Below, piece by piece: positions 13,102 to 41,608 of a DNA stretch of 64,000 bases. Positions within the stretch are counted from its first letter, which is position 1; every line of letters begins with the position of its first letter. The notes under the pieces are model-generated. The model was not told the origin of the DNA. It saw only the letters and a list, made by a program, of their open reading frames with translations, and searched no databases. Position numbers and translations under genes: made by a program. Source of the stretch: Haliotis asinina (Eukaryota > Mollusca > Gastropoda > Lepetellida > Haliotidae); contig NC_090290.1 of assembly GCF_037392515.1 (NCBI RefSeq), forward strand, positions 186,001 through 250,000, read 5' to 3'.

Positions 13102-16100
13102 TTAACAATCCACTCCCAATCTCATGGGTGGCTTGGACACACGGCCAAATCTAGTCACAGTCGGTGACGGAGACATCCCAGACACTGGGGACGTCGTAGA
13201 CGACGAAGATGTAACATCGGCGGTTCCAGCACTCTTCACTGGCACAAACGTGCGTGACGACAACAGAATATCACGACGATTCCTCCGAAGTAGACTACCA
13301 CGATCTGTCTGAACAAAGTAAGACCTTGGGCCAACGTCCTGAATGACCGTACCTCGTTGTGACCAATCACGCCGCTGATGATCACGCACTGCAACTTTGT
13401 CACCACACTGAAGCCTACTCAAACTCTTAGTAGACCTGTCGTAATAGCGCTTCTGTTTTACTTTCTGATTCTCCTTATATTTAACAACTTTACGAGATCT
13501 GGGAACTTGCAAAAGTTTCTCCTGAATAGGGAGATTAGAGCGAATACGTCTGCCCATAAGAATCTCGGCTGGGGATCGCCCATTATCAAGAGGAGAGCTC
13601 CTGTAAGCAAGTAACCCCATATAAGGATCCCGACTTTCCTTACGCAAAATGTTTTTCACAATCTGAACAGCTTTTTCTGCCAAACCATTTGACTGTGGGT
13701 AGTTTGGACTAGACGTGTTATGCTTGAATTGCCAGTCACGTGTAAACTGTCTAAATTCGTGACTACGAAACTGGGGACCATTGTCTGTAAATACCTCGTC
13801 GGGGATACCATGGCGAGCAAACGCCGTTTTCATGGAGGCGATGACACGACGAGACGACGTATCTGTCAAGGAGCATACCTCCGGATAGTTGGAGAGATAA
13901 TCTACAATCACCAGATAATCTTTCCCACCACAGTAAAAGAGATCTGCGGCAACTTTCTGCCAAGGGCGAGAAACCGTCGGATGAGGTTGCAGAGGTTCAG
14001 GCTGCTGTCTGTTCCTGTATGTTTGACACATAGAACAGTTAGACACAATATTGTCAATATCATGATTGAGTCGTGGCCAAAAAAGAGTTTCTCTGGATCT
14101 ACGTTTACATTTCTCCATACCAAGATGACCAGCATGAATTTTGTTTAGCATGCAGTTTCTGAGCGAGGTAGGTATTACAACCCTAACACCCTTGAAGATT
14201 ACACCATCTACAACAGTCAAATCATGCCTGTAGTTCCAATACTCACGAAGATTCACGGGACATGAACTTCTATGCTCTGGCCAACCTGACTGAACAATTT
14301 CCATCAAAGCGACTAGCACAGGATCCCGGCTTGTCTCCTGACGTATCTCAGCATAGCGTGTCGTGGACACAGGGAGAGACGAGACGATCATGTCAACGTA
14401 GGCTTGAACACATTCTTCAGATGACGAAACAGATCCGGGCTTTGATGAAGGACATGAGCGGGACAATGTATCAGCTGTAAACATGAACTTTCCCGAGGTA
14501 TGTGAGACTTGAACATCATACTGTTGCATTCTTAACATGAATCTCTGTATTCTGAGAGGGCAGTCATTCAGAGATTTGTTGAAAATTGAAACAAGTGGTT
14601 TGTGATCCGTTTCTACAAGTATGGACTGCCCATATAAGTACTGATGGAAATGTTCACATGCAAAAGTTATTGACAACATTTCCTTTTCGATTTGAGCGTA
14701 CCTTGTTTCAGCACAGGTAAGAGCTCTGGAAGCATACGCTACAGGCAACCAATCAGAATCATACTTCTGCAGCAGGACAGCACCCAACCCATTCTGGGAA
14801 GCGTCAGACGAAATCTTGATTTTCCTCCCAGGATCAAAGAACTTCAGGACTGGCTCCTGTGACACAGCTTGCTTCAGAGACAACCATGATTGTTCCTGCT
14901 GAGGTAGCCACAGAAAATCAACATCTTTATCCAACAATTGTCTAAGTGGTTGCGTCTTCTCTGACAAGCGAGGGATGAATTTACCTAAGTAATTTATCAT
15001 ACCCAAAAACCTTTGGATATCTTTCTTACAGGTAGGTCTCTGCATAGACTGTATTGCTTCAACCTTCCGGGCATCTGCCTTCACACCATCGCTGCTAATC
15101 ACATCGCCAAGAAATGTTAACTCGGTGACTCCAAATACACATTTGTCTGGGTTGAACTTCAAGTTATTCCGACGTGCGATATCAAGGACCTGAGAAAGAT
15201 GGTTATCATGATCTTCAGGTGTCGAACCTGACACAATAATATCATCCATGGAGGTATCTACACCTTCCACTGAATCAAACAAAGTGTGGATTGTCTTATG
15301 ATACACTTCTGGAGCAGAAGATATGCCAAAGGGGAGCCGTAAGAATCTATATCTTCCAAAAGGTGTTATAAACGTACAGACCTTCGAACTCTCCTCATCC
15401 AACCTCAGTTGCCAAAATCCAGCTGACGCATCCAGTTTACTGAAATAACGTGCATTCGAGAACTTTGCAGTGATTTCATCTCGTGTGGGAAGCTTAAAAT
15501 GTTCACGTTTAATGGCCTTATTCAAGTCCTTAGGGTCAATGCAGACTCTCAATTGTTTGTTTGGCTTTTCAACAATTACAAGAGGACTCACCCAATCCGT
15601 TGGTTCATTCACCTTGGTTATGACGTCAAGCTTCTCCATGCGATTGAGTTCCTCCTTCAGTCTGTCATGTAAAGCAAAGGGCACTCGACGACATGCGTTT
15701 ACGACAGGTGGAACATCATTATCGAGCTTGATGTGATGAACACCTGGCAGATTACCTAGACCCTTGAACACGTCTGCATATTTCTGAAATACTACACCTC
15801 CATTCAAAGGTAACTCAGCATCAACAGAGAGAACACGGCGAACCAAATTCAACTGGTCACATGCTTTCAGCCCTAGAATAGACTGAACATCTTCTGGAGT
15901 TACAACAAATATGAGATCAAGTTGTATGTTCTTGTGACAAACTTTAGCTGTAAACTGACCCATTACAGGAATATCAACATGAGAGTAACCAGTGAGTTTA
16001 GTCTTTGAGAGGCGCAGTTTGGGCTTGTCTAATAGTCTGTTGAAATCTTTCTCAGAAAGGATATTAGCTTGAGCACCTGTGTCAAGTTTAAGTGGCAAGA

Positions 16101-16989
16101 ACGTGTTATTGACTTGTAAAGAGACTATCCAATCTTTGCCAGAAACGACATCTGCATCAACTGAATCCACAAAGAGTTCATCTTGGGTTTTCTCAACAAA
16201 GTGAACTTTACTTTTCGATGACTGATTTTTGGACCTACAAACTCTAGCAAAGTGATTCTGTTTCCCACATTTATCACATGATTTTCCAGATGCAGGACAT
16301 TTTCTAGGAGCGTGTGTAAATCCACAATAGCCACACGTATCAGACTGCTCAATCGAACGTGAACCAGAACTCTGTGACTTTTTCCTGTTAGATTTTCGAC
16401 GACCAGATTTTGATTGTTGTTCAACTGAATGTACTGGCTGAGGGTCTAGTGGATGAAGTTCCTTAACTTGAACTTTACTAGCTTCAGCAGCTCTGCACAT
16501 AGTAATAGTCTTGTCTAAAGTCAAATCATCTTCACGCAAGAGTCTTTCCCTTAATGCATCACTTGCAATGCCACAAATTATCCTATCTCGTATGAGTGAG
16601 TCATGCAAATCTCCAAACTCGCATGTTTTTGCTCTGCTCTTTAACTCTGTAACATACTGGTCTATTTTCTCCCCTTCCCTCTGGCTACATGTAAAGAATC
16701 TGTGCCTCTCGAAGGTAATGTTACGTTTGGGAATGCAGTAAGCTTCAAATTTATCCAAAATTGACTTAAGTCTCATGGCATCCATTTCACTCTCAAAATG
16801 AAATGTGTTATAAAGTTCAAGTGCATCTTCTCCAATTGTAGACAAAAAAATAGACGACTTTACCTTGTCACCTTTCCCGTCCTTGTCAGAAGCAGTCAAA
16901 AACAGCTCAAACCGTTGCTTGAACTTACGCCAGTTCTCAGCAAGATTACCAGTCAAAAGCAAAGGTGAGGGTGGTCGTAGTTTGTCCAT
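13102..16989 (-). CDS. gag-pol polyprotein of Ty3/gypsy retrotransposon
   Basis: One uninterrupted frame of 1295 residues starts 28 bases after the LTR. Gag covers about residues 1-260 and ends in two zinc knuckles, CGYCGFTHAPRKC (219-231) and CDKCGKQNHFARVC (238-251). The protease has LDTGA (D303). Reverse transcriptase shows FSKLDASAGFWQL (D520) and SMDD (580-583), where most relatives have Y-x-D-D, so the tyrosine position is serine. RNase H shows SSDAS (D729), E768 and TDHKPL (D795). Integrase has an H-H-C-C finger (HAGHLG...CSMC), D1016, D1069 and E1105, giving the D-x-D-35-E spacing. No chromodomain or envelope gene is present. Gag and pol share one frame with no stop between them. All key residues except the YxDD tyrosine are intact, so this copy may be active. 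Confidence 0.93.
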   Translation of the reverse strand: MDKLRPPSPLLLTGNLAENWRKFKQRFELFLTASDKDGKGDKVKSSIFLSTIGEDALELYNTFHFESEMDAMRLKSILDKFEAYCIPKRNITFERHRFFTCSQREGEKIDQYVTELKSRAKTCEFGDLHDSLIRDRIICGIASDALRERLLREDDLTLDKTITMCRAAEASKVQVKELHPLDPQPVHSVEQQSKSGRRKSNRKKSQSSGSRSIEQSDTCGYCGFTHAPRKCPASGKSCDKCGKQNHFARVCRSKNQSSKSKVHFVEKTQDELFVDSVDADVVSGKDWIVSLQVNNTFLPLKLDTGAQANILSEKDFNRLLDKPKLRLSKTKLTGYSHVDIPVMGQFTAKVCHKNIQLDLIFVVTPEDVQSILGLKACDQLNLVRRVLSVDAELPLNGGVVFQKYADVFKGLGNLPGVHHIKLDNDVPPVVNACRRVPFALHDRLKEELNRMEKLDVITKVNEPTDWVSPLVIVEKPNKQLRVCIDPKDLNKAIKREHFKLPTRDEITAKFSNARYFSKLDASAGFWQLRLDEESSKVCTFITPFGRYRFLRLPFGISSAPEVYHKTIHTLFDSVEGVDTSMDDIIVSGSTPEDHDNHLSQVLDIARRNNLKFNPDKCVFGVTELTFLGDVISSDGVKADARKVEAIQSMQRPTCKKDIQRFLGMINYLGKFIPRLSEKTQPLRQLLDKDVDFLWLPQQEQSWLSLKQAVSQEPVLKFFDPGRKIKISSDASQNGLGAVLLQKYDSDWLPVAYASRALTCAETRYAQIEKEMLSITFACEHFHQYLYGQSILVETDHKPLVSIFNKSLNDCPLRIQRFMLRMQQYDVQVSHTSGKFMFTADTLSRSCPSSKPGSVSSSEECVQAYVDMIVSSLPVSTTRYAEIRQETSRDPVLVALMEIVQSGWPEHRSSCPVNLREYWNYRHDLTVVDGVIFKGVRVVIPTSLRNCMLNKIHAGHLGMEKCKRRSRETLFWPRLNHDIDNIVSNCSMCQTYRNRQQPEPLQPHPTVSRPWQKVAADLFYCGGKDYLVIVDYLSNYPEVCSLTDTSSRRVIASMKTAFARHGIPDEVFTDNGPQFRSHEFRQFTRDWQFKHNTSSPNYPQSNGLAEKAVQIVKNILRKESRDPYMGLLAYRSSPLDNGRSPAEILMGRRIRSNLPIQEKLLQVPRSRKVVKYKENQKVKQKRYYDRSTKSLSRLQCGDKVAVRDHQRRDWSQRGTVIQDVGPRSYFVQTDRGSLLRRNRRDILLSSRTFVPVKSAGTADVTSSSSTTSPVSGMSPSPTVTRFGRVSKPPMRLGVDC

Positions 16990-20604: not shown

Positions 20605-20815
20605 AATTTGCTGTGACAAAAGGTGTAAGAAATTCCCTCAAAATATAACACTGTAAAATATTCAGTAATATGTACAGAGCAAACAAAAGCAAGATACAAA
20701 GATTCACAATAGAGGTTTCATGTACAATGCATCTGAGTCAAACCAAACGTAATGGGTGACAAATGTAATATCAACTCACCAAAGTCTTGACTTGAGAGTG
20801 AGAAACAGATAGTAG
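20605..20815 (-). repeat. LTR of the Gmr1-like family, copy B, continued as a satellite array
   Basis: The region matches copy A (450-1000) and copy C (63575-64000): GCTGTGACAAAAGGTGTAAG, TAGAGGTTTCATGTACAATGC and AAGTCTTGACTTGAGAGTGAG in the same order. Where copies A and C go on with ACTGAAT..AACACA, this copy passes into the 93-bp array. No pol sequence is attached. Confidence 0.75.
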
Positions 20816-22294
20816 TAAGGCCGAATGATATACTTACCTTACTCGGTGAGCTGTGTCATGTAGTGGTCATGTAGGTCAAGTGTTGGTGAAGAGGCAGCTA
20901 GGCAGTAGTAAGGCTGAATGATATACTTACCTTACTTGGTGAGCTGTGTCATGTAGTGGTCATGTAGGTCAAGTGTTGGTGAAGAGGCAGCTAGGCAGTA
21001 GTAAGCCCGAATGATATACTTACGTTACTCGGTGAGCTGTGTCATGTAGTGGTCATGTAGGTCAAGTGTTGGTGAAGAGGCAGCTAGGCAGTAGTAAGGC
21101 CGAATGATATACTTACGTTACTTGGTGAGCTGTGTCATGTAGTGGTCATGTAGGTCAAGTGTTGGTGAAGAGGCAGCTAGGCAGTAGTAAGGCCGAATGA
21201 TATACTTACGTTACTTGGTGAGCTGTGTCATGTAGTGGTCATGTAGGTCAAGTGTTGGTGAAGAGGCAGCTAGGCAGTAGTAAGGCCAAATGATATACTT
21301 ACGTTACTTGGTGAGCTGTGTCATGTAGTGGTCATGTAGGTCAAGTGTTGGTGAAGAGGCAGCTAGGCAGTAGTAAGGCCGAATGATATACTTACGTTAC
21401 TTGGTGAGCTGTGTCATGTAGTGGTCATGTAGGTCAAGTGTTGGTGAAGAGGCAGCTAGGCAGTAGTAAGGCCGAATGATATACTTACGTTACTTGGTGA
21501 GCTGTGTCATGTAGTGGTCATGTAGGTCAAGTGTTGGTGAAGAGGCAGCTAGGCAGTAGTAAGGCTGAATGATATACTTACCTTACTCAGTGAGCTGTCA
21601 TGTAGTGGTCATGTAGGTCAAGCGTTGAGGAAGAGGCAGGCAGTATTAAGGCTGAATGATATACTTACCTTACTCGGTGAGCTGTGTCATGTAGTGGTCA
21701 TGTAGGTCAAGCGTTGAGGAAGAGGCAGGCAGTAGTTAGCCGAATGATATACTTACGTTTCTTGATGAGCTGTGTCATGTAGCGGTCATGTAGGTCAAGC
21801 GTTGATGAAGAGGCAGCTAGGCAGTAGTAAGGCGGAATGATATACTTACGTTACTTGGTGAGCTGTGTCATGTAGTGGTCATGTAGGTGAAGCGTTGATG
21901 AAGAGGCAGGCAGTAGTTAGGCCGAATGATATACTTACGTTTCTTGATGAGCTGTGTCATGTAGCGGTCATGTAGGTCAAGCGTTGATGAAGAGGCAGCT
22001 AGGCAGTAGTTAGGCTGAATGATATACTTACCTTACTCGGTGAGCTGTGTCATGTAGTGGTCATGTAGGTCAAGCGTTGAGGAAGAGGCAGGCAGTAGTA
22101 AGGCCGAATGATATACTTACCTTACTCGGTAAGCTGTGTCATGTAGTGGTCATGTAGGTCAAGCATTGAGGAAGAGGCAGGCAGTAGTTAGGCCGAATGA
22201 TATACTTACCTTACTCGGTGAGCTGTGTTATGTAGTGGTCATGTAGGTCAAGCGTTGAGGAAGAGGCAGGCAGTAATAAGGCCGAATGATATAC
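20816..22294. repeat. 93-bp (later 88-89 bp) minisatellite derived from the LTR, about 16 units
   Basis: GAATGATATAC or a one-base variant recurs at 20823, 20916, 21009, 21102, 21195, 21288, 21381, 21474, 21567, 21654, 21742, 21835, 21924, 22017, 22106, 22195 and 22284. The first nine units are exactly 93 bp and nearly identical. Later ones lose an AGCTAGGC-type segment and become 88-89 bp. The unit GTCATGTAGGTCAAGTGTTG..GAAGA.GGCAG matches LTR copy C at GTTATGTAGGTCGAATGTTGATGAAGACAGGCAG, so the array arose inside an LTR. Confidence 0.92.
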
Positions 22295-22343
22295 TCCAGT
22301 TATTCCAAGAGTAGTCTGTGTTGTGATAACAACCAATCTCATA

Positions 22344-28679: not shown

Positions 28680-30084
28680 TTGGCTGAAAACATGTTATTT
28701 GTTTAGAGACAAGTTAGCTTTGCATAAAAATGCTATATTTCACATGTTCTGAGGTGTAATTTTTCTGCAGAGGGGCCCAAAATGGGTTTTATCAGTTCCC
28801 ATGAAAAATAACAACAAGTCTGAAATATCATTGTGCCATAATGGCTTATTTACAACTGTTATTTTATTTACATGCATATTACAGCAGTTTCACGACAGGT
28901 AGTCATGCTGAAAAACATGTCAATGTCAGTAATAATGTTTTAATTTCAAGGGGCCCAATTAGGGTTGCAAAACATTGTTAATTCAATTACTTGCCAATTG
29001 TGTCCCCAAAACTCAGTCATTATTCACAGCAATCTTTGCAAATGTAATCCATGGGTCAATTTTACAACTATGCATGATAACAATCATGTTGCACTAAGAA
29101 TCACAGGGTCCTGGTGTGGGTGAAGCTACATTTTGGGCACAGCTTCATTCTAACAAGTAAGTGGAGTCAGCATTTACCACCAGTTTTAGCAAATATACAG
29201 TTACCATCTCAATCATCATATGTTATTACAATAGCCAACTATGTTGCACTAAAAATCACAGGTCTTGACCTCAATGGGGCCCATTTCGTGTGAAATTTCT
29301 CAGTGCAGGTTCATATTAACACCATGCACATGTTAAAGTCAGTATTCAAAAGACTTCACAGAGTAATTATTCACAACTTATCCACTTTAAAGATATAAAA
29401 CATACATTATTACTCTTCATTCACACAGTCATCAATCTCAGTATCTGATTCACTCTCAAGAACTGCAGTATTCAATAGTGTATAAACCTAAAGTAGATCA
29501 AAATGTATAAAATATGAATTTAAAATATTAGGAACAAAATATTTGGGCAACTAGACTGACTTGAAAAGGTGAATGGTCAGTGTCTTATTAGAAAAGATTT
29601 ACATGATGTTAATTAAAGCTTGTTTCACCAGTGTTGTAACATATATAGATTACCAAACCTAAGAACAAAATTACAATATTTGGATTTAAAGTGAAACAGT
29701 TTAGTTAAACAATGTAGGCTTGATAAACAAACTTTGAAAAAAAAGAAAGAAAAGTTACATGGATTTGAACCTGCATGTCTGATAACAAAAGAAACCAACA
29801 GTCCACTATAGCAACCATTAGGCTACTTATTCCTTTGCCTTGCAGTGTGAATTTAAGCTTATATATTACACTTTACAACTATGTATGACTTGATGTCTGC
29901 TTGTGTTCATCACCTGCTAGACATTGATACAATGTTCTTATTCTAGCTAAAACATCCTTTTCATACAGTTAAGTGTAGTCATTTTGGTTAAATGAAATCT
30001 AATATGGCATTGGAAACATCAAGGTACATACGTTCTTGGAAAATGCATATGTTTATATGTATACATGGCAATCCTGTTGAATGA
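28680..30084. other. left subterminal region of the insertion; dispersed short repeats, no firm gene
   Basis: TGTTGCACTAA.AATCACAGG occurs at 29090 and 29244, and GGGGCCCA at 28767, 28947 and 29273. On minus, 29490-29410 could be a last exon: an acceptor CTTTAG, then an acidic tail LESESDTEIDDCVNEE and a stop. No partner exons were found, so I do not call a gene. Confidence 0.4.
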
Positions 30085-30109
30085 CAGTGTTATTTTACCC
30101 ATATGAAAT

Positions 30110-30395
30110 ATTCTTATAAGTTTCTTATAAGATTCTTATAAGATTCTTATAAGTTTCTGATAAGATTCCTATAAGTTTCTTATAAGATTCTTATAAGTTT
30201 CTTATAAGAATCTTATAAGTTTCTTATAAGATTCTTATAAGAATTTTGTATGCAAATTAGATAAGAACTTATAAGATTCTTATACAATTCTTATATGAAT
30301 CTTATAAGAAACTTAGAGGATACTTATAAGAATCTTATAAGAAATCTTATAAGAAACCTTATTGGTTCTTATAAGATTCTTATAAGATTCTCACA
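30110..30395. repeat. left array of the palindrome CTTATAAG in an 11-bp register
   Basis: Twelve units of (A/T)(A/T)TCTTATAAG follow one another without gap at 30110-30241, each exactly 11 bp. After a short break further units run in looser spacing to about 30395. The core CTTATAAG is self-complementary, and TTCTTATAAGAA is a perfect 12-bp palindrome. An 11-bp spacing is close to one turn of DNA. The same motif array stands at 40969-41174. Known CACTA elements have arrays of short subterminal repeats bound by an element-encoded protein. Confidence 0.92.
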
Positions 30396-32074
30396 TACTG
30401 AACCGAAGTACCAACCAGAATTACAGCTGATGACTGTTTGCAGTTTTTATGGGGATGGCCATTAAGAAACCCACTGGTTCTAGAAATAGAAAGCTCTGAG
30501 TTTTACATTTATGGTCACATGAGCAAAAGCATAATTCAACAAACATCAACAGCACGGCATGAGAAATACTATTCAATTTTAATTACATCGCAATTCAGCA
30601 AAACCTCACCCAAGAAAACATTTTCTTACATTAATGGTAATGAAAACATTCATACTTCTTGATACAGTATTTTTAAATCAATATCACTACTTAAAACCTT
30701 GAAAAAATACAAAAAAAATATTGTTAGTCGGGAAAGATATGCCTGTTACAGGAAAGAAAAAAAAAGGTGCTTAACAATCCATTTATCACATTATATAAAT
30801 ATCAATATACTGAACCAAAAAGTGTGAGTTTACACAGGCTTACACCTAAGAACATATTAAGACATATGCATATTTTATACCAAAATTCTCTGTGAACTGC
30901 TGTTTTTTCTCTACGGTAACATAAGCGTTCTTTACAGTAACAGAATAAATTCTTTACTGTAACGGTTGCATTCAGTGTCTGTACATCCAGCAAATGCTGT
31001 TAATTGCATACACATACATTAGAGAATAATATTCGTGTAATGATTACTCCTACATGGGGTAAGATGTTAGTAAAACCTTGAACATGATAATCACAGTGAC
31101 AAATATATTCTTTCCTGCAACAATTACCATTCTCTGCTGTAATCGTCTGAGGACAAATATGTAACTTATCATCTCTTTTTCACATTGTATAAACATAATA
31201 ATATATTGAACCAAAAGTGTGACAGGTTCACACTAATAATATATTAAGATACAAGTTTATATTATACCTAGTTCCTGTTTAAATGTCTGAGTTTTCTTTC
31301 CACAGTTACCATTCTTAGCATTACAGGAAAGAACGCTAAGGAATGTAGTACATCAACACAAATTACATTATGAGGAAAATTAATGCCCCCTCATAAAAAT
31401 TGGACTTTTCAAGTTTCAAATGTTTCACAGTTCGGATGCTATCATGGAAACAAAATTTTGCAATACTGTACATGTCAGTGCAACAGTATTGTTACAGGAA
31501 AGACACTTAATAAGTACATGCCCAAAGTCCTAATATTTTAAGTCCTTTCCCCACAACTCTCAGTCAACAGAACATCTGGAACTTTTGTCATCATGAGAAC
31601 ACAGGAAGTGCCAAAGAGCATGCAGAAGTTTGGGTATGTTGGCATCAGTGATCATACATTATTTCAAATTTGACACAGTCGTTATGGGAAAGAACAATAT
31701 CTGAGGGACAGCTACAAAACATGTCTTATTTTAGAAAATATGAAGTCAAACATCTTTCAATCCTTATGTGTGTGAACTAAACAGCTAATACACAGGAAAT
31801 CAGACCCCGAAGTTAACTAATTTAGTGAATTTGTATCAACAGAGATGAAAAACGAACAACACCCTGACTGAGGGACAATGAAAACAGCTCAATTTTCGCC
31901 CTTTTAAGGACTGTTACGAATAAGAAATCAAAACACATTTGTCCACAATTAAACATGGATATACAAATATAATGCCTTAACTTTCTTCTTGGGCTGAAAG
32001 AGTGCAATAAATTTGAAAAAATATTTATGTAACTGAGCAGGGACAAGAATTCCTGCATTTTTTTAAAACGACTC
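30396..32074. other. region between left array and BEN gene; dispersed TTACAGGAAAGAA-like motif
   Basis: No gene is supported. A degenerate motif, GTTACAGGAAAGAA or its reverse complement, recurs: near 30748, 30905, 30932, 30952, 31110, 31302, 31322, 31492 and 31680. It may be a second, decayed subterminal repeat set or 3' untranslated sequence of the BEN gene. Confidence 0.45.
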
Positions 32075-35000
32075 TTATAGGTCTGTAGTGATCACTCTAT
32101 TTTTCATTTTCTTTCTTGAGTCTGCACACTGGCAGTTCATAATCTGAACTAGCTCTCGTTCAGTTGTCCTCGGGCTCTTTGATAACACGAACCCTGTAAT
32201 GAAAAGATTGATTAAATCATTTCAATTTATCTGTATTATGTTGTACAATTTTGACAATGTTTATATCACCAGTGTTAAAATATTTCATTTGAAAACTAGT
32301 TCAAAAGAAGCTTGAAATTTAGAATTGTTTAACAAAAGATTTTTATCTATGTGTACATGATTAAAATAAATAATTAATAAATAACCGAGTGGAGAAAAGG
32401 GATCATTGTTTGATGTATTCAAGTAATAAATATGAATTTTGAATAATGAACAAAATTTAACTACATGAAATCCAAAACCACAACATTACTCACTTTAACA
32501 CCTACACACAATTCAACATTTCCACAGAAACATACTGCTCAAGATACTTTCATGAATCTAGTTTTTACTTGAATGATAGTCACAATACTTATCTATTAAA
32601 AAAATGTACAGAGATGTTCAATTCTATATTTTCATATGCTTTTTTACACTTGTTTGGTTCAATTTTTCAAGTTCTCTATTAGAATTACCTTTTATTGCTG
32701 CGACTGTCTTTGTTGGCAAAGCAGCCTTCGTCCCTTTCCCTTCTGCGGAGGATTCCCCAAGCTCCTGGTCAGAAAAAAATGCATGAAGCAAATTTCTCAC
32801 GAGCTTGGAGGTTGATCCCTTCGCAGAAGAAATGCAGGCGTCCAGGACAATTTTCTTTAGCATCACCCCTCCGCCAAGGTCAACGAGATCAGCATCGCAT
32901 GTTGAGGGTGATGGCAGAGTACTTGTCCTAGGTGAAACAGGTGATAAAGATGGGGAAGGTGGCGGCGGCGCTGGTGGAGACATGAGCCTAGATTGCGTAG
33001 GAGGGGAGAAAGCAGGTGTTCGGGGAATTGATGGGGAGGTACTTGGCTGCGGCAGAGTTTCGGTGGCTGGATTAACTGGACATAATCCAGCCAGCTGATT
33101 AATAAATCTCTGCACTGATTCTGACATCAAAGAGGATGCAAGATCACCATTGCATGGACAAGGTTGAACTGTCCTTGCCTGCAGTCTTGCCAGGCTAGCT
33201 TTCGTGGCAGCAAGTTCCTCTTCCTTGTCCTTTAATAGCTGCTCTTTGTCCTTTATAACCTGCTCCTTTTCCTTGATGATTTGCTCCTTCTCCTTGATAA
33301 TGACGTCTTTCTCCTCTAGGCTCCTTGTCAACTCCTCTACCTGGTCTCCATGGCCGTACTGCACCACCAAGAGCTCCTCCACCATCTTCTCATGGGCTCT
33401 TATCTGGGCCTTCTTTTCTGTTTCCGAAATCTTAGGTGCTTTCTGAAATATTATTTTTAATAAAATTAAATATATCCATAAAAGCTTAAGTCAATATAAC
33501 AATAAAACAATACTCAAATTACTTCATACAAACATCATGATATCTCTTTATAGTGTCAAGAATTCTTCACCTTGAAACAGTCTTGCTGTCAATCATATTT
33601 TGCGATAAGTAAAGTGAGTTTTAATTTGTTTTATAACAGTTGTTCCAACTATTGTTTTCAATTGCCATAGGCCCTGGTCATTTTTAATACACTTACCCAT
33701 AAAGAGCTTGTAAATAATTGTCAGTAAATTACATTAATTTCTGTAATTTCACAATCACTGGTTAACTGCCCATAAGTAGTGTTTAAGTAGCATTAGTCAG
33801 TATTGATAGTTATATCAAGTAACCGCTTGTAGTTGCTTTGGTTTTATATGCACACTGTCACTCTAGGCAAAATTCATTCTTATGTCTAGTCCCAATTAGA
33901 TCCAAATTAGACTTCGTGATGCAAGATACCCATTTGGGTTTTGTTGAGCTGATTTTTCTTAGAGTCCTTTTCATGAACGTGTACAGTAACAATTATCGTT
34001 TTAGCAATGTTAGGTTTTAACTAAACTGAAACCTACAATTAACAATTCCTCTTTCCTTCTTTATTTGATTATCTTCTTTCAAAGTATTGCATACCTTTGT
34101 AGGTTCCGTAGCTTTGTTAGGATTGGCCAGTTTTCTCTTTTTGGTCTCTACTTCCTTATCAGAATCTGCTTTCTTCTCCTGCTTCCTGTCAGGATAGGCC
34201 ACCTTCAGCAGAGTTGCCTGCTTTGCAGCTTCTTCTTTGTCAGCTGAAAGGATAAACATTTGACTTCAATGCAGGAATGATTTCATGGAAAACAAATGTC
34301 AACTTCACAATTTGTAACCTCTCCAAGGAGCTACTGGAAACTATAATCTCTTTCCTTTTTATTTTCCATTTCTAAAATATTTCAAACTAAGAAACACTTC
34401 TTTAAATATCATGCTTTTCAAATAGTGATCGAAAATCAAAATATGTTGTGAATGAACTAATGGACTAATCTTCTACTGGGCATGGACTAAGGCTAGACCC
34501 AGCCTAAGTGCTATGTGTTTCAGACGAGTTGTTACATAATGATTACATACGGATATTCATGATGTATCTTCTATTTATGGTATCATTCAAAGACATCATG
34601 AAATGTAACATAGGTGAAAATCTGTTTCATCGATCCAATCTGTTGTTGTTACCTTGCTCTTTAAAATACAACTCAGACTTACAAACTTTAAACTCTCACT
34701 TCAATCATGAATGTTTCTTATTATTACACTTACATCCTATGAAGAGAATCTTGGCCTTGTACATTTTCTTGTCAAGCCACTTGGCCATGCAATAGTCTCC
34801 TTCCTGCATGTAGCCCTCTTGGAGAGTCAACCCTGTCTCTTCATCTTCCACTTCTGTTCCCTTCAGGACTCCACTCAGCTGGCCATCGAAGTATCTCACA
34901 ACAGCCCATTTCACTTTAATAAATTGAAATAACAGGTTTAAAACCACTGTATCACGGTCACTCAAATCTGAACAAATAAAATCCAATGACAATATTAGAA

Positions 35001-35717
35001 ATTATACAGACTAGACCAATTATAATAGTCTCTGGTGCATCAGTATATAATATGTCTGTGTGTCTTTATAAGTAACATATTACCATGATTAAGTAAAATC
35101 ATTATCAAATCTAAGATTTATTGAAGCAAATCTGAGTTATTAAAACAGTCTGATCATATGAAACTGACTAACTGCAATTGTTACCTAATAAGTGTTGAGA
35201 AATTAATCCCAAAACAAATCATTGTACTGAGATTTAACAACTGTTTAAAGATGAACTGGTGTCACATTGAAATCGAATTAACTCGGGGCATTCAACTGGC
35301 ATTAAATTACGCCATCATGGAGCTGATAAATCAAATAGTCCCTCAGTCACTGTAGTCTCATTTTAGGAAGGTTTTATTTGTTATGTCAAACTGCAATCGT
35401 CTGGATATAAATACCCTGGACTGGAGACAGCAGGGTAAACGTAATTTTACGTTCAAACTTCGAATTGGACACGAAGAATCATCGCCACCCACGAAATTGT
35501 CACATTTTAAATTTCGACAAAAAGTGTTACAAAGTTTGTTGACGACTAGCGAAATAGATACTCAGAATCGTCTTCATATAGTGTTTTCGTCATATCAAAG
35601 ATACGTGTTTGGTCATTATCTGAAAAAAAAACTTTTAGACAATTAAATTATTCCTCGATACTTACATTTATCGAAGTGGTATGTTCTCACAACACGGCGA
35701 TCGAACGTCTTTGCCAT
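32075..35717 (-). CDS. BEN-domain protein with coiled coil, five exons, 417 aa, inside the EnSpm-type element
   Basis: Exons on minus: 35717-35666, 34913-34734, 34243-34095, 33442-32689 and 32193-32075, all with GT-AG borders and compatible phases (1254 nt, stop included). The protein starts MAKTFDRRVVRTYHFDK. Residues about 18-77 form a small module (LKWAVVRYFDG...GDYCMAKWLDKKMYKAKILFIG), and 78-145 are lysine/glutamate-rich. Residues 160-215 are a strong coiled coil (IIKEKEQVIKDKEQLLKDKEEEL), followed by a proline/serine linker. Residues about 313-410 are a BEN domain: KLVRNLLHAFFSDQELGES...LPTKTVAAIKGFVLSK...ELVQIMNCQCADSRK. BEN domains bind DNA and often recognise palindromes (Drosophila Insensitive is an example). 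The start lies head to head with the transposase gene. Its role as a binder of the CTTATAAG arrays is inference. A captured host gene is the other possibility. Confidence 0.85.
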
Positions 35718-36925
35718 TTTCAAAATCAGGAGTCAAGAATGGTACACGAAGAAACAAAATCGCTCAGTGTTTGACAAAGGACGTGAAAATTACTGGAATC
35801 GGGAATGGTAAATGATGAGTAGTTGAAATTCGCGGGGTCGTAGACAATGGTGAAATGAAAAATACCGCCAAATGGAAACATTGGTTATTTCCACATATGG
35901 AATCGGAAATGTTCAGGAATCGGAACCAGGAAGGCTTATGGTTTATTTTTGTTAATACCAAACTTCAATGGTTGGTTGTTTCATTATTCAGTTATATTTT
36001 TTATATCTTTCTTTTTTCAAAACCGATATTTAATTCAGTATTTTCCTACCCCTCCAATACGATTAAATTTAGAAATCAACTGTTGCATTCCGACCCCGGA
36101 ACCATTTTGGAATTCCCATTTTGGCGCATGCGTATTAAATGAAACGGAAGCCGCCCGCCAATGGAGCTGAAAGGGAGTCGTTCAATTTGGTAAATGGTCA
36201 ACTTTGGATTTCAAGAGAAAATAGCCCAAAAAAGGTAAGAGGCTGTTGAATTAACTGGTCTTATTGCAGCAATACTTCGTTTTAAGCATTTGTGCGTTAT
36301 AATAGATAGATTTTGATGTCCTTTTACCGAATTTTACGATTCACGACGGATATGGAATTTTTAAATGAAAGAGAAAGACAGTCCCAAATGAGTAATGGTA
36401 TGGTAACAAGATCACGGTATTATATTTCTAAATTATGATATGATTTTCACTTTATTGAATATTACAATTCTTTGAAGTTTAGAATAGTTCAGCTATCTAA
36501 AACATCGTGTTCCTGAGTCAAGGCATACATCGATGCTCATAGCTCGCTGAAATAGTCAAGTTCAATAGTACGACCAAAATGCGTAATGTCATTTACACAC
36601 GCGAGTACACGCTCAATTTATTTGTCATAAATGATTAGTAATTCACATTAAGGGTTCAATATCTGGTGACCACAAACATGAAACATTCTAACGGAAATTA
36701 AGCAATTTTCAGAAGTGTCATCGTGTCAGTTTGTTTTTTCATCACTAATGGATAAAAGTAGCATACATATCGACACAAAGCAGTTAGATTTCATGCATAA
36801 CTCTTTCAGTTACTGTCTGTTAGTGATTAATAAATATGGAATAAAATCATTAAATTCAAATTTAATAAAACATGTTTGATTTTCAGTTTCTCAAAGGTTG
36901 AATAAATTACATTGATTATTTTCAG
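35718..36925. promoter_or_regulatory. divergent promoter region and 5' untranslated exon/intron of the transposase gene
   Basis: The BEN gene starts leftward at 35717 and the transposase gene rightward at 36940. A likely noncoding first exon of the latter ends at CAAAAAAG/GTAAGAGG (36233/36234), and its acceptor TTATTTTCAG ends at 36925. That leaves about 400-500 bp for a shared promoter. No TATA box stands out. Variants of GGAATCGGAA occur at 35790-35925. Confidence 0.5.
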
Positions 36926-39900
36926 AAACATCACTTGAAATGGCAGACCCACCAAGAAAGAGAGTTAGTACGTCTTACAAAAGATATATCAAGGAGCACA
37001 CTGGAAAAGAGGGTGTCCCACCCAGTTCCAAAAGAGCATTCATGGAAAGTTACAACAAGATTATTTCTCATTTGCCAAGCTCTCCTGATGCTGTTGATAA
37101 CACAAAGAGCCAGCAAACAGGGTCTGAATCAGGGTTATTTGAAGATGAGGGCGAGTCATCTGCAGATAATGATATGAATCAGCCTAGCTACCATGCAACA
37201 AGTAGTCATTCTGCTGACTCAGCTGACATTGAAGATGATATTGGAGAAGCAACTCTGTTGCAAAGTAATTCCACATCAGGACAACAGTCACATGTGCCAG
37301 ATGAAATTGCAAGCAAGATTCAGGATTTTCAGGAAATGAAGTACAACAGGTGTGAATTCAAACTTTATTTCAATCTTCAACTTGTCCAAAGAAATTTGAG
37401 AAATCTGCTATTGAGAAAAAGGAGAAGTAGTCAACCTATTCTGAAAAAAAAAATAATTCATTTCATTTTTGTATTTCAGTCTATATAACTTGATATTTCT
37501 TAAAAGCACACTTGTTCACTTAAAAATGCGATTTACTTGGGTTCTTCATTTTCTTATTTATGCCAAAAGAGACTGAATATTCACTCTGTCCTCTGTTAAA
37601 AATAACAAATGACTTATGGTGTCATCAAAGCATCATCATTGGTCATTGGTAGGTGATGCAGCAACAATAATGATGTAGCCAGAAATTGATGAAGTGGACC
37701 GATTTGAAAACATCAATTTCCATCACTGAAGCATATTTATAAGAAGAAAACTATCACTTACCCAATAAGATTATCGTCCTAATGCCTGCAGTTCATGAGG
37801 GATAACTGATATGTAGTGAAGATACAAAAATCTATTCATATCCTGTTCTTTATTTTTTCAGTGATGATGATGACATGCAAGAAATCCCACAGAATGATGA
37901 CAGCTTTCATTCGACGTGTTCAAGTGATGGATTTGGTATTATTGATGATGAACTGTCAGAAGAGGATTGCCCAAACAGTGAGGATGAGAATTTCGGTGTA
38001 GAGTCTGACTTCAATAGTTATATTTACAAGGGTGCACAGATAACTTTATCTGTCAGCATACTACTGATTCTGGCCTTTGCAACAAGACATTCACTAACAT
38101 CAGATGGGATAACAGAGTTGTTGCATCTGCTTGCTTTGCACTGTACGGCAGGACACTGTCTTCCAACTACACTTTATTCTTTCAAGAAATATTTTCACAA
38201 TGTTAACCATCCACTGATTTTCCATAAGTACTGTTCATTTTGTTTGCTTGGCATTGAAACATCCATAGAAATGGACACATGTCAGAATCCGCTATGTTCC
38301 AAGAAACTAAATGAAGAAGGAAGTGTGTCTGGCTTCATTGAAATTCCAATAGAATCTCAACTGCAATCTATGTTCAAACGCCCAGGGTTCATCACCAGTT
38401 TAGTACATAAATCAAGAAGTCGCAAGAGAGATGAAGATACAGTTGAAGATATCTGTGATGGTTTACAATACAAGAAATTGGTTGCCGATGGGATACTGAA
38501 GTCAGTGTATGATTTGACATTGACTTTTAATACAGATGGTGCTAAACCATTTAGAAGCTCCAAAACCAGTTTGTGGCCAATTTACTTAATGATAAATGAA
38601 CTGCCTTATGCAGAGAGGAGAATGCCAGAAAATATGGTATTAGCTGGGATTTGGTATGGTGCCAAAAAACCATCAATGACAGGATTTCTGACACCTTTCA
38701 TGAAAACGTTGAAAGGTTTGGAACAAGGCTTTGTGGCTTGCACACCAGATGGAGAAGTGGAGTGTAGAGCTATACTGATAGCAAGCACCTGTGATCTTCC
38801 TGCTAGAGCATGTGTTTGTGCCATGAATCAATACAATGGACAGTCATCATGCGTAAAGTGTCTTCAGACAGGAAAGGTTGTTAAAGTAGGAAAAGGCCAT
38901 ACAAGAGTCTTCCCTCCAAACATGGATTGTTTGGATGGACCAGCTAGATCAGACAACTCAGTGACTAGAGATGCTCTTGATGCGGTACGATTAAAGGTGC
39001 CAGTAAATGGCATCAAAGGGCCCTCGTGGTTTTCCTACCTCACATTTTTCAGTTTTGTACATGGAACTGGCATTGATTATATGCATGGAGTACTTCTTGG
39101 TGTAACTAAACTTATGCATTCACTGTGGTTTGCTAGTAAGCATAATTGTCAAGTGTTTAGTGTTGCTGGCTTCATAGATAAAGTTAATAGACGACTGCTC
39201 CAAATAAAACCTCCCAACTACATGTCAAGACTGCCCAGATCTTTAATGGACTCAGATTACTGGAAGGCATCTGAATGGAAATACTGGTTGTTATTTTATG
39301 CTCCAACAATTATGCATGATATTCTTATGCCAGAGTACTACAGACATTTTTTGCTTTTATCAGAAAGTATTTTCTTACTATTGCAGGATTCCATTAAACC
39401 TTCAGATATCCGCCACAGCAAGATACTGCTGGCTAGATTTGTTGCAATGTTTCCAGTGATGTATGGGGAATCAGTGATGACTCTTAATGTACACCAGCTT
39501 CTGCACTTGCCTGATAATGTTCTGAATTTAGGTCCTTTGTGGTGCTTTTCATGCTTTCCCTTTGAAGATGCAAATGGTTTTTTGTTGAAGTTATTTAATG
39601 GAACACAGCATATTGATAAACAGATAGCTCATGCCGTTGCAGTTATACAGAAAATGCCTGAGTTGATTCCTGCCATAGAGAAGAATAGTGTGGCATATGA
39701 TCTCTATTGTAGGCTGAAAAGCAAATCAAAATACAAAGGTACTATGTTAGATCCTGGCATTTATCTCATTGGAGCAACAAAATTCCTAAAACAGTTGTCA
39801 CCAGAGTATGCTCAAGCTGTGAAGGAAAGCGTGTTAAGTCCTTTTGAAAGGCTTGTGACTTTTAAGCGAGTTAAAGTTGATGGAGATGTGTACTTCTCAG

Positions 39901-40250
39901 AGGCATACAGGCGTGTACTTCTGAGAAATAGTTGTACTGTGCTCTATGAAAGTAATTCATCACATATGTACGGCATAATAGAAACTTTCCTGCAAGTTTC
40001 ACCTGTGTGTCGGTGTGAGGATCTCAGCAGCTGTGTCTGTGTGACAAGAAACTTAGCCATGATTAGGTGTTTAGAAGTGAGTGATAACTACATGGGTGTC
40101 AGTTACATCAAGGAAGTGAAGTCCACTAATGACAAGAAAATAATTGCTGTGAATCTGAAAGCTTTGAAACGGAAGTGTGTGTTTGTCAAAGTTCATGATT
40201 CTGATTCTGCTTTTTTGTGTAATGTACCAAATGTTTTGGAAAAAGATTAA
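36926..40250 (+). CDS. EnSpm/CACTA (Tnp2-like) transposase, 932 aa, two coding exons
   Basis: Coding exons are 36940-37349 and 37862-40250, joined at AACAG/GTGTGA and TTTTTTCAG/TGATG; the split serine codon keeps frame (2799 nt). Residues 1-140 are polar and acidic. The Tnp2-like core has TFNTDGAKPF (D362), ASTCDLPARAC (D447), a CVKC zinc pair (467-470), GTGIDYMHGVLLGVTK (D542), LNVHQLLHLPDNV, and GPLWCFSCFPFEDANG. These blocks in this order are those of EnSpm/CACTA transposases in animals and plants, which cut DNA at the element ends. The length is in the normal range and nothing is broken. Polyadenylation signals AATAAA stand at 40663 and 40939. The right CTTATAAG array starts about 700 bp after the stop codon. 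Exact catalytic residues are assigned by motif resemblance only. Confidence 0.85.
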
Positions 40251-40968
40251 AGTTTTAGTTTATCATTTTTAATACACCACCTTTAAGTTTTGATTCCGAT
40301 CTCATAAAAAGTCAATCATTTCAAACATTGCAAGAACTGTTATGATTGTACAAGTTACAATTTATGAATCTTAAACCTATGAAGTTTGAATTTTCTTTTG
40401 CGTTTGGGATTATTGTTGGTAGTGCTTGAATCATGTTTTTTATTGCCTATCTTATTCTGGATTATATTCATGATACCATCCAGTTATTCATATTGTTCTA
40501 CTTTGGGATGTGCATGTATTTTTACTGTTTTACAATATTTTTAACAATGTTCCTTTTAAGTTCAACTTAATTTGGCATTAAATGTTTTCTTTGAGTTCTA
40601 CAATGGAAAAACTGTCTTTTATTTTCAGTACTCTGTAATTTCTGTTTTGGTTTTTCAGGGCAATAAATCTATTATGATTGAAATAGTTTGTAAAGAATGA
40701 CTATTTTGGATGTTATTTTACAGTGTCAGTCAAACACAATTATTGTCTTAGACATTTCATCAACCAATTTAATGTTAAACCAATGTAATTGTAATATTTA
40801 TCAATTACACAAAATGTTTTGAAAGGATTATGACTTCAATGTAACTGCAAAACCCTTTACAATTATGTAGTTTTAGAAGAACAAATTTGTCGATCATGTT
40901 CTGTTCCATGTACATTTTGTTTGTTGTAGATATCAGAGAATAAATTTTGTAAAAAAATGAAAATTTTA
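40251..40968. other. 3' untranslated/flank of the transposase gene
   Basis: AT-rich sequence with AATAAA at about 40663 and 40939 and no frame worth reporting. Confidence 0.5.
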
Positions 40969-41174
40969 CTTCTTATAAGTTTCTCATACTAAGTAAGAAA
41001 AAGATGAAAAAATCTTATAAGAAATTTTTGTCGCTAAGAAATGAGTAAGATTCTTATAAGAAACACCATTTTCATTTCTTATAAGTTTCTTATTCCCAGT
41101 TATTTCTTATAAGAATCTTATAAGAATTCGTCTTCTTATAAGAATCTTATAAGAATCTTATAAGATCTTATAAG
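40969..41174. repeat. right array of the palindrome CTTATAAG
   Basis: CTTATAAG recurs about ten times, again partly in an 11-bp register (AATCTTATAAG repeated at 41110-41160). It ends 26 bases before a possible terminal CACTGTCATTACCCGTACGG (read on minus from 41200). The left array has the comparable CAGTGTTATTTTACCCATATG 25 bases outside it. Confidence 0.9.
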
Positions 41175-41608
41175 GTAAAACCGTACGGGTAATGACAGTG
41201 ACAGGTGACTCAAAGGTGTCTGATACACAGATGATTATAGAAAAACTATGATCAAATTCTTACATAATAACAAAGATTTTCACCTTTACAGAACTGCTTG
41301 ATCATATTTTGAAAATCTTCAGACATCTTCTTACTTTTCTAGCAGAGACCATCAACCAAACACCAATGTTTTCCTCTCATAAATCTGCCTTGTGAGTGCC
41401 TAATATGATACTGAAAATTTTAATAACGATGTTTGATATGTGTATTTTAAAGCGCAAAACCATTCAAAATATAATGTATCATGGCACAGATGTGTAAATG
41501 TGATGGATTGTTTTTAAAGATGTTAGTTTATGTCAATGTTTATTTTTTGAGATGTTGTATGGGGCAATTTCATAAACCAAAAAAATGTACTTTTTTAAAG
41601 ATTTTGAT

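Follow-up and report, generated by a model that had tools for sequence, protein, structure and literature searches.

A CMC-clade transposon of Haliotis asinina with its own BEN-domain gene and palindrome arrays at both ends: a possible animal parallel to the plant TNPA system

Plant CACTA elements are the textbook example of transposition that depends on a second, array-binding protein. In these elements TNPA binds subterminal repeats, and TNPA and TNPD are both required (PMC2613891). BEN proteins bind short palindromes as dimers, aided by neighbouring multimerising regions (PMC6317261, PMC7764960 and, for BANP, PMC11472053); Insv binds CCAATTGG, its coiled coil and BEN domain forming larger complexes that are proposed to link sites (PMC6317261), NACC1 binds ACATGT (PMC7764960), and a BEN-like fold in the bacterial Tn3 transposase TnpA binds transposon ends (PMC9579193). 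The stretch of DNA analysed here, 64,000 nucleotides of the gastropod Haliotis asinina (contig NC_090290.1, positions 186,001 to 250,000; hereafter the window), contains an 11,092-bp transposon in which a Tnp2-type transposase gene and a BEN-domain gene lie head to head between two arrays of the 8-bp palindrome CTTATAAG. On balance it is probable that this animal transposon is young, intact and low in copy number, that it belongs to the CMC clade, and that its own BEN protein acts in the manner of TNPA, binding the CTTATAAG arrays and pairing the ends.

Sequence comparison of copies in one genome (1.14 Gb in 159 contigs) gives good support to the view that the BEN gene belongs to the element and is under selection there. 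A second full-length copy (C1:58.3M) is 99.2% identical over window positions 30096-41191, has unrelated flanks beyond, and retains both genes intact together with 17 + 11 exact CTTATAAG sites. An old copy (C4:53.48M), 87-93% identical in its aligned blocks, keeps the two genes in unchanged order as well as an array at the right end, and carries inserted DNA and frame damage; its homology is recovered from window position 30395, just inside the left array, which itself lies outside the recovered part. The co-occurrence of transposase and BEN gene in other copies, which the initial annotation proposed to look for, is seen in 2/2 full-length copies and in this old, near-complete one. No complete copy lacking the BEN gene was seen, and a protein search of the genome found no single-copy host gene close to the element's BEN protein. 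A host BEN gene adjoining a transposon was considered as an explanation and rejected, as both genes recur together in the copies. The protein search recovered BEN pieces at nine loci (38 rows of matches), six of which hold other parts of the element, namely the window, C1:58.3M, C4:53.48M, C4:54.18M (left end), C6:36.63M (left arrays) and C1:91.78M (transposase end), the last being a deletion copy that joins the 3′ part of the BEN gene to the 3′ part of the transposase gene. At the remaining three (C1:84.65M, C9:66.28M and C55) no other element part lies in the DNA examined. A 163-bp derivative on C5 consists of ends and sites only. Relative to the window, BEN dN/dS is 0.06-0.30 in 8/8 diverged copies (dS 0.13-0.52), with Fisher tests for seven of them giving p values of 1.8e-10 to 5.3e-7, and transposase dN/dS is 0.32-0.35 in two diverged copies (p = 2.9e-7 and 0.03); these p values overstate independence because the copies share history, neighbouring copies are mutual duplicates, and gapped or stop-containing codons were left out. 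Across these codon comparisons the direction of selection on the BEN frame is consistently purifying. The BEN gene of C1:58.3M differs by one silent and four replacement changes, too few for dN/dS.

The palindrome CTTATAAG occurs 27 times in the window where 1.28 occurrences are expected, a number reached in 0/100 shuffles, and all 27 fall into two blocks, 17 on the left and 10 on the right, with none between the blocks. At both ends the first CTTATAAG starts 16 nt inside ACCC. Mirrored arrays in an 11-bp register had been claimed by the initial annotation; both arrays stand, as does the register on the left, where 12 consecutive sites (at no more than one mismatch) are exactly 11 bp apart and the drift over 20 sites is 2 bp, but not a strict register on the right, where steps of 10-11 bp occur among the outer sites only and elsewhere measure 18-42 bp. 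Pairs of CTTATAAG are concentrated in the element, which accounts for 43 of the 50 places listed out of 85 in the genome. In the right arrays of seven copies the cores are better conserved than the remainder (18/502 versus 69/1095 mismatches, p = 0.03). An apparent old left array at C15:48876204-48878100 (L038, L040, L043, L047) extends for well over 1 kb as degenerate 11-bp units, and the register can therefore grow by tandem duplication.

The features of the element, in window coordinates and with the BEN exons as predicted in a splice model, are as follows.

30096..30097, unstranded: putative left target-site duplication TA, directly outside the element in 3/3 two-ended copies
30098..30112, plus strand: left terminal inverted repeat (CCCATATG...), which is short and imperfect and at which the homology of the copies stops
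30113..30386, unstranded: left CTTATAAG array, with 17 exact sites, 20 sites at no more than one mismatch and 12 consecutive sites at 11 bp
30358..30365, minus strand: variant site within the left array whose reverse complement is the Elba site of the literature, CCAATAAG (PMC6317261); a resemblance only
32075..32193, minus strand: BEN exon 5, end of the BEN domain and stop (splice model)
32689..33442, minus strand: BEN exon 4, heptad-repeat region, proline-rich linker and start of the BEN domain (splice model and profile matches)
34095..34243, minus strand: BEN exon 3 (splice model)
34734..34967, minus strand: BEN exon 2, N-terminal region (splice model)
35666..35717, minus strand: BEN exon 1, the least certain exon (splice model)
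35718..36939, unstranded: gap of 1.2 kb between the head-to-head genes
36940..37349, plus strand: transposase exon 1
37862..40250, plus strand: transposase exon 2, Tnp2/DUF1258, DDE with C(2)C and H(3)H motifs, RAG1/Transib-like core
39753..40229, plus strand: BAH-like C-terminal fold of the transposase, residues 627-785 of a 791-aa frame
40972..41174, unstranded: right CTTATAAG array, 10 sites
41175..41189, minus strand: right terminal inverted repeat (CCCGTACGG... inward), from copy comparison
41190..41191, unstranded: putative right target-site duplication TA, from copy comparison

The transposase, described in the initial annotation as an intact, Tnp2-like protein of 932 aa, is indeed encoded in full by two plus-strand exons, joined at GT-AG sites judged by inspection, and it matches the Tnp2 family (Transposase_21, PF02992) at 32.1 bits against a cut-off of 28.6 and DUF1258 at 38.4 bits against a cut-off of 33.1. 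Among 18 aligned proteins D307 and E564 are invariant and D221 is present in at least 90%, in agreement with the DDE pattern of the CMC/CMCT clade (EnSpm, Mirage, Chapaev, Transib), and from their position in the motif these three are probably the catalytic residues. The pairs C326/C329 and H540/H544 are likewise invariant in the 18 sequences, and the core of the protein has the RAG1/Transib-like fold of the same clade. By motif and fold, the transposon belongs to the CMC clade. The transposase sequence gave one match in the PDB, at E 0.18; no relative was found in phage records, and the profile found none in viral contigs. The sea star Patiria miniata has a relative with 61% identity across two thirds of the query.

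The BEN gene lies on the minus strand and is modelled, by inspection, from open frames and consensus splice sites as five predicted GT-AG exons encoding 435 aa, so that the five exons and the head-to-head arrangement of the initial annotation are retained and its length of 417 aa is revised. The call of a BEN domain proved right though weak: against PF10523 the whole protein reaches 22.8 bits, just below the Pfam cut-off of 23.2, and a 105-aa C-terminal piece scores 25.4 bits and passes that cut-off. Four of the five rows of the BEN alignment match PF10523 at E 0.1 or better, three of the five having been stitched from pieces, and the domain spans the splice junction between exons 4 and 5. Searched against the PDB, a C-terminal profile has two matches, both BEN structures of NACC1 at weak E values (0.17 and 0.23), and the full BEN protein gives chance-level matches only. 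The heptad region of exon 4 holds 21-bp tandem repeats, and exon 2 alone, folded as a single sequence, reaches a mean pLDDT of 65.8. A BEN-domain search of the genome, insensitive in that it recovers the window's own BEN exon only at E 3, gave six matches, four of which are copies of the element's BEN gene; the other two, both weak (C12:11.86M and C9:33.5M), may be unrelated host BEN genes.

Comparison of copies sharpens the limits of the element from 30085..41200, the extent given initially, to window positions 30098-41189, with CCC...GGG termini and TA on both flanks; the left end reads CCCATATG... and the right end CCCGTACG... inward. TA/TA flanks are found in 3/3 copies with both ends recognisable (the window, C1:58.3M and the 163-bp C5 copy), the flanks of C1:58.3M being open to an alternative reading as AGT/AGT, a duplication of the 3-bp length typical of plant CACTA elements. 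Seven copies retain a single end, flanked by TA in three cases (C3, C5 at 60.5 Mb and C12) and by AC (C7 at 2.7 Mb), AT (C4 at 54.18 Mb), TG (C15) and TT (C7 at 39.7 Mb) in one case each; these counts leave out five badly degraded end regions (L034, L036, L037, L072, L074). Because the flanks vary among the single-ended copies, TA looks like a target-site duplication with a site preference and not element sequence. The right terminus is AGG instead of GGG in two copies, including the 163-bp one. A left-end pattern allowing up to three mismatches occurs at 7 places against 6 in a reversed control, and it served to locate ends, not as evidence. Two other placements of the ends were rejected: CACTG-like ends from about 30085 are absent from the other full-length copy, and a target duplication of 8-10 bp, suggested by AATGACAGTG near both window ends, is likewise absent there, homology ending at CCC in each case. 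The AATGACAGTG pair itself lies at 30080-30089 and 41191-41200, outside both ends and further out on the left; it was not seen at the C1 copy and is probably a feature of the insertion site. In the surrounding DNA, frames matching RNase H (PF00075, 27162-28037) and reverse transcriptase (PF00078, 41748-42377) flank the element, an open 1295-aa frame at 13102-16989 resembles by eye a retroelement gag-pol polyprotein, and a 93-bp tandem repeat in 16 copies with strong GC skew occupies 20811-22295.

In the proposed mechanism, the transposase would cut and join at the short ends, dimers of the BEN protein would bind CTTATAAG through the C-terminal BEN domain, and the heptad-repeat stretch would join these dimers in larger assemblies covering both arrays, so that the two ends of the element come together. 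Like TNPA in maize Spm, the BEN protein may in addition have a regulatory function in the element. An end-binding accessory role for the BEN protein appears most likely because of the TNPA precedent, the binding of palindromes by BEN proteins, the example of Tn3 TnpA, the restriction of the arrays to the ends, and the 163-bp copy. By analogy with those systems, the protein would bind CTTATAAG, multimerise, pair the ends and be needed for transposition. Taken together, the comparisons confirm the observation made in the initial annotation and partly support its interpretation of the BEN protein as an animal counterpart of TNPA. A wider evolutionary account can be put forward tentatively, its prospects being somewhat short of even: a TNPA-like second protein may have evolved independently of plants from a BEN chromatin factor, with dimers on palindromes about one helical turn apart pairing the ends for a RAG1/Transib-like, BAH-tailed transposase, and with related families using other palindromes and partners as protein and array co-evolve.

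Other Tnp2 and palindrome families occur in the same genome. Arrays of the 8-bp palindrome ACCATGGT with 10-bp steps lie 3′ of three Tnp2 genes (L009-L011), that of L009 at C4:42195909-42195994, and an 18-base double site of ACCATGGT has 521 + 425 genomic occurrences at no more than one mismatch, against 3 + 4 for the reversed control. Among 36 more distant matches to the ACCATGGT array (69-70% identical), an exact double site stands at a distance of 4.1-4.8 kb from 32 and of 5.9 kb from one; for the other three the listing contains none. This spacing, exemplified by the site pair at C2:83468622 and 83472857, is what the two ends of a single repeat family would show, a family that carries arrays at both ends of roughly 4-5-kb units and is more numerous than the BEN transposon. 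A further Tnp2 family (L005, L006 and L019, at C13:55.63M, C4:19.18M and C4:49.54M) has a transposase 37-40% identical, ends in GGG or GGGT, and carries GAAGCGCCCC-like subterminal repeats that are by eye mostly not palindromic.

Several results weigh against a TNPA-like role of the BEN protein. The ACCATGGT units and L009-L011 gave no BEN match in the protein search or in the insensitive BEN-domain search of the genome, so that a BEN partner does not follow from arrays of this kind alone. The cores of the left arrays are no better conserved than the remainder (71/520 versus 81/579 mismatches in six copies, p = 0.93), pairs of CTTATAAG are not enriched over the whole genome (85 versus 217 for the reversed control), and simple tandem duplication can yield an 11-bp register. 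The BEN match is weak, no relatives of the BEN protein were found in the protein database at E 0.01 (7,995 candidates) or at E 1 (35 candidates), and several partial copies have the BEN gene without the transposase gene or the reverse.

The rival that survives best, an unlikely one in our estimate, assigns the binding of the CTTATAAG arrays to the transposase or to a host factor, and to the BEN protein some different task, for example holding the chromatin of the element open or insulated. The Ac transposase, for instance, binds its own subterminal repeats. The ACCATGGT arrays beside L009-L011 and at the ends of the 4-5-kb units, with no BEN match there, argue for this rival, as does the BAH-like C-terminal fold of the transposase; the low sensitivity of BEN detection noted above and the partial recovery of L009-type elements reduce the force of the first point, and the combination of an 8-bp palindrome with a heptad-repeat and BEN layout fits the published pairs of BEN protein and palindrome. 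A role of the BEN protein mainly as regulator of the element, in repression or anti-silencing in the manner of the suppressor and promoter roles of TNPA and not as part of the transpososome, is improbable: the BEN proteins in the literature portions available are repressors, boundary factors and transcription factors, and the two genes stand head to head, but the 1.2-kb stretch between them has no CTTATAAG and all 27 sites are at the ends. A third rival, in which the element picked up the BEN gene from its host as a passenger without any function there, is very improbable, since the three of nine BEN loci with no other element part seen are set against purifying selection in all eight diverged copies and the same placement of both genes in the full-length and old copies.

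If the TNPA-like role is correct, an animal relative of CACTA would have reached the same solution with a different DNA-binding fold, and BEN domains, mostly described as host chromatin or boundary factors, would be placed inside a mobile element; the result would be a compact and testable system of two proteins whose naturally occurring 163-bp substrate would serve the study of subterminal-repeat function. No account of BEN genes within DNA transposons was found in the open-access literature covered, where most searches reached the best-ranked entries of long lists, a scope that excludes Repbase Reports and subscription journals. With RAG1 and Transib, compared through their structures, the transposase shares the fold of the catalytic core, the DDE residues and the CMCT-clade Cys/His motifs; it differs in its BAH-like C-terminus and in a sequence identity of about 10%. 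The partner of RAG1 is RAG2, not a BEN protein. In DBD1 of bacterial Tn3 TnpA a BEN-like fold also recognises transposon ends; it is located within the transposase itself, and its targets are the terminal inverted repeats instead of a subterminal array (PMC9579193). Drosophila Insensitive shares the coiled coil followed by a C-terminal BEN domain, an 8-bp palindromic target and multimers proposed to join distant sites, but is a BEN-solo host chromatin boundary factor, is not carried on a transposon, and has CCAATTGG as its target (PMC6317261).

The closest functional likeness would be to the plant CACTA elements En/Spm and Tam1, with TNPD and TNPA or TNP1, which share a Tnp2-type transposase, a second protein (whose role here is proposed), short subterminal repeats whose motif differs by family, and small derivatives that keep the cis sequences (PMC2613891). 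Unlike these, the present element ends in CCC, its repeats are perfect palindromes, the binding of its arrays is a proposal, and its second protein, of the BEN type, is the product of a divergent gene of its own and not of alternative splicing. The EnSpm/CACTA-type label of the initial annotation accordingly holds for the Tnp2/CMC affiliation, which Pfam matches and motifs support, and not for the ends: with CCC...GGG termini in place of CACTA or CAC..GTG, the element is, by its end sequence, not of the plant CACTA type. It resembles the animal CACTA-like TRC elements (SmTRC1 and those of Tribolium and Aedes), with which it shares a Transposase_21 gene, CCC ends and a putative 2-bp target duplication, here TA/TA in 3/3 copies with the AGT alternative for one (PMC1636069). 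In the portion of that source available, TRC elements are described with a transposase open reading frame and tandem repeats, and neither a BEN gene nor palindrome arrays are mentioned. Judged by its sequence, the Haliotis element fits the TRC description, to which the BEN gene and the palindrome arrays add a new part.

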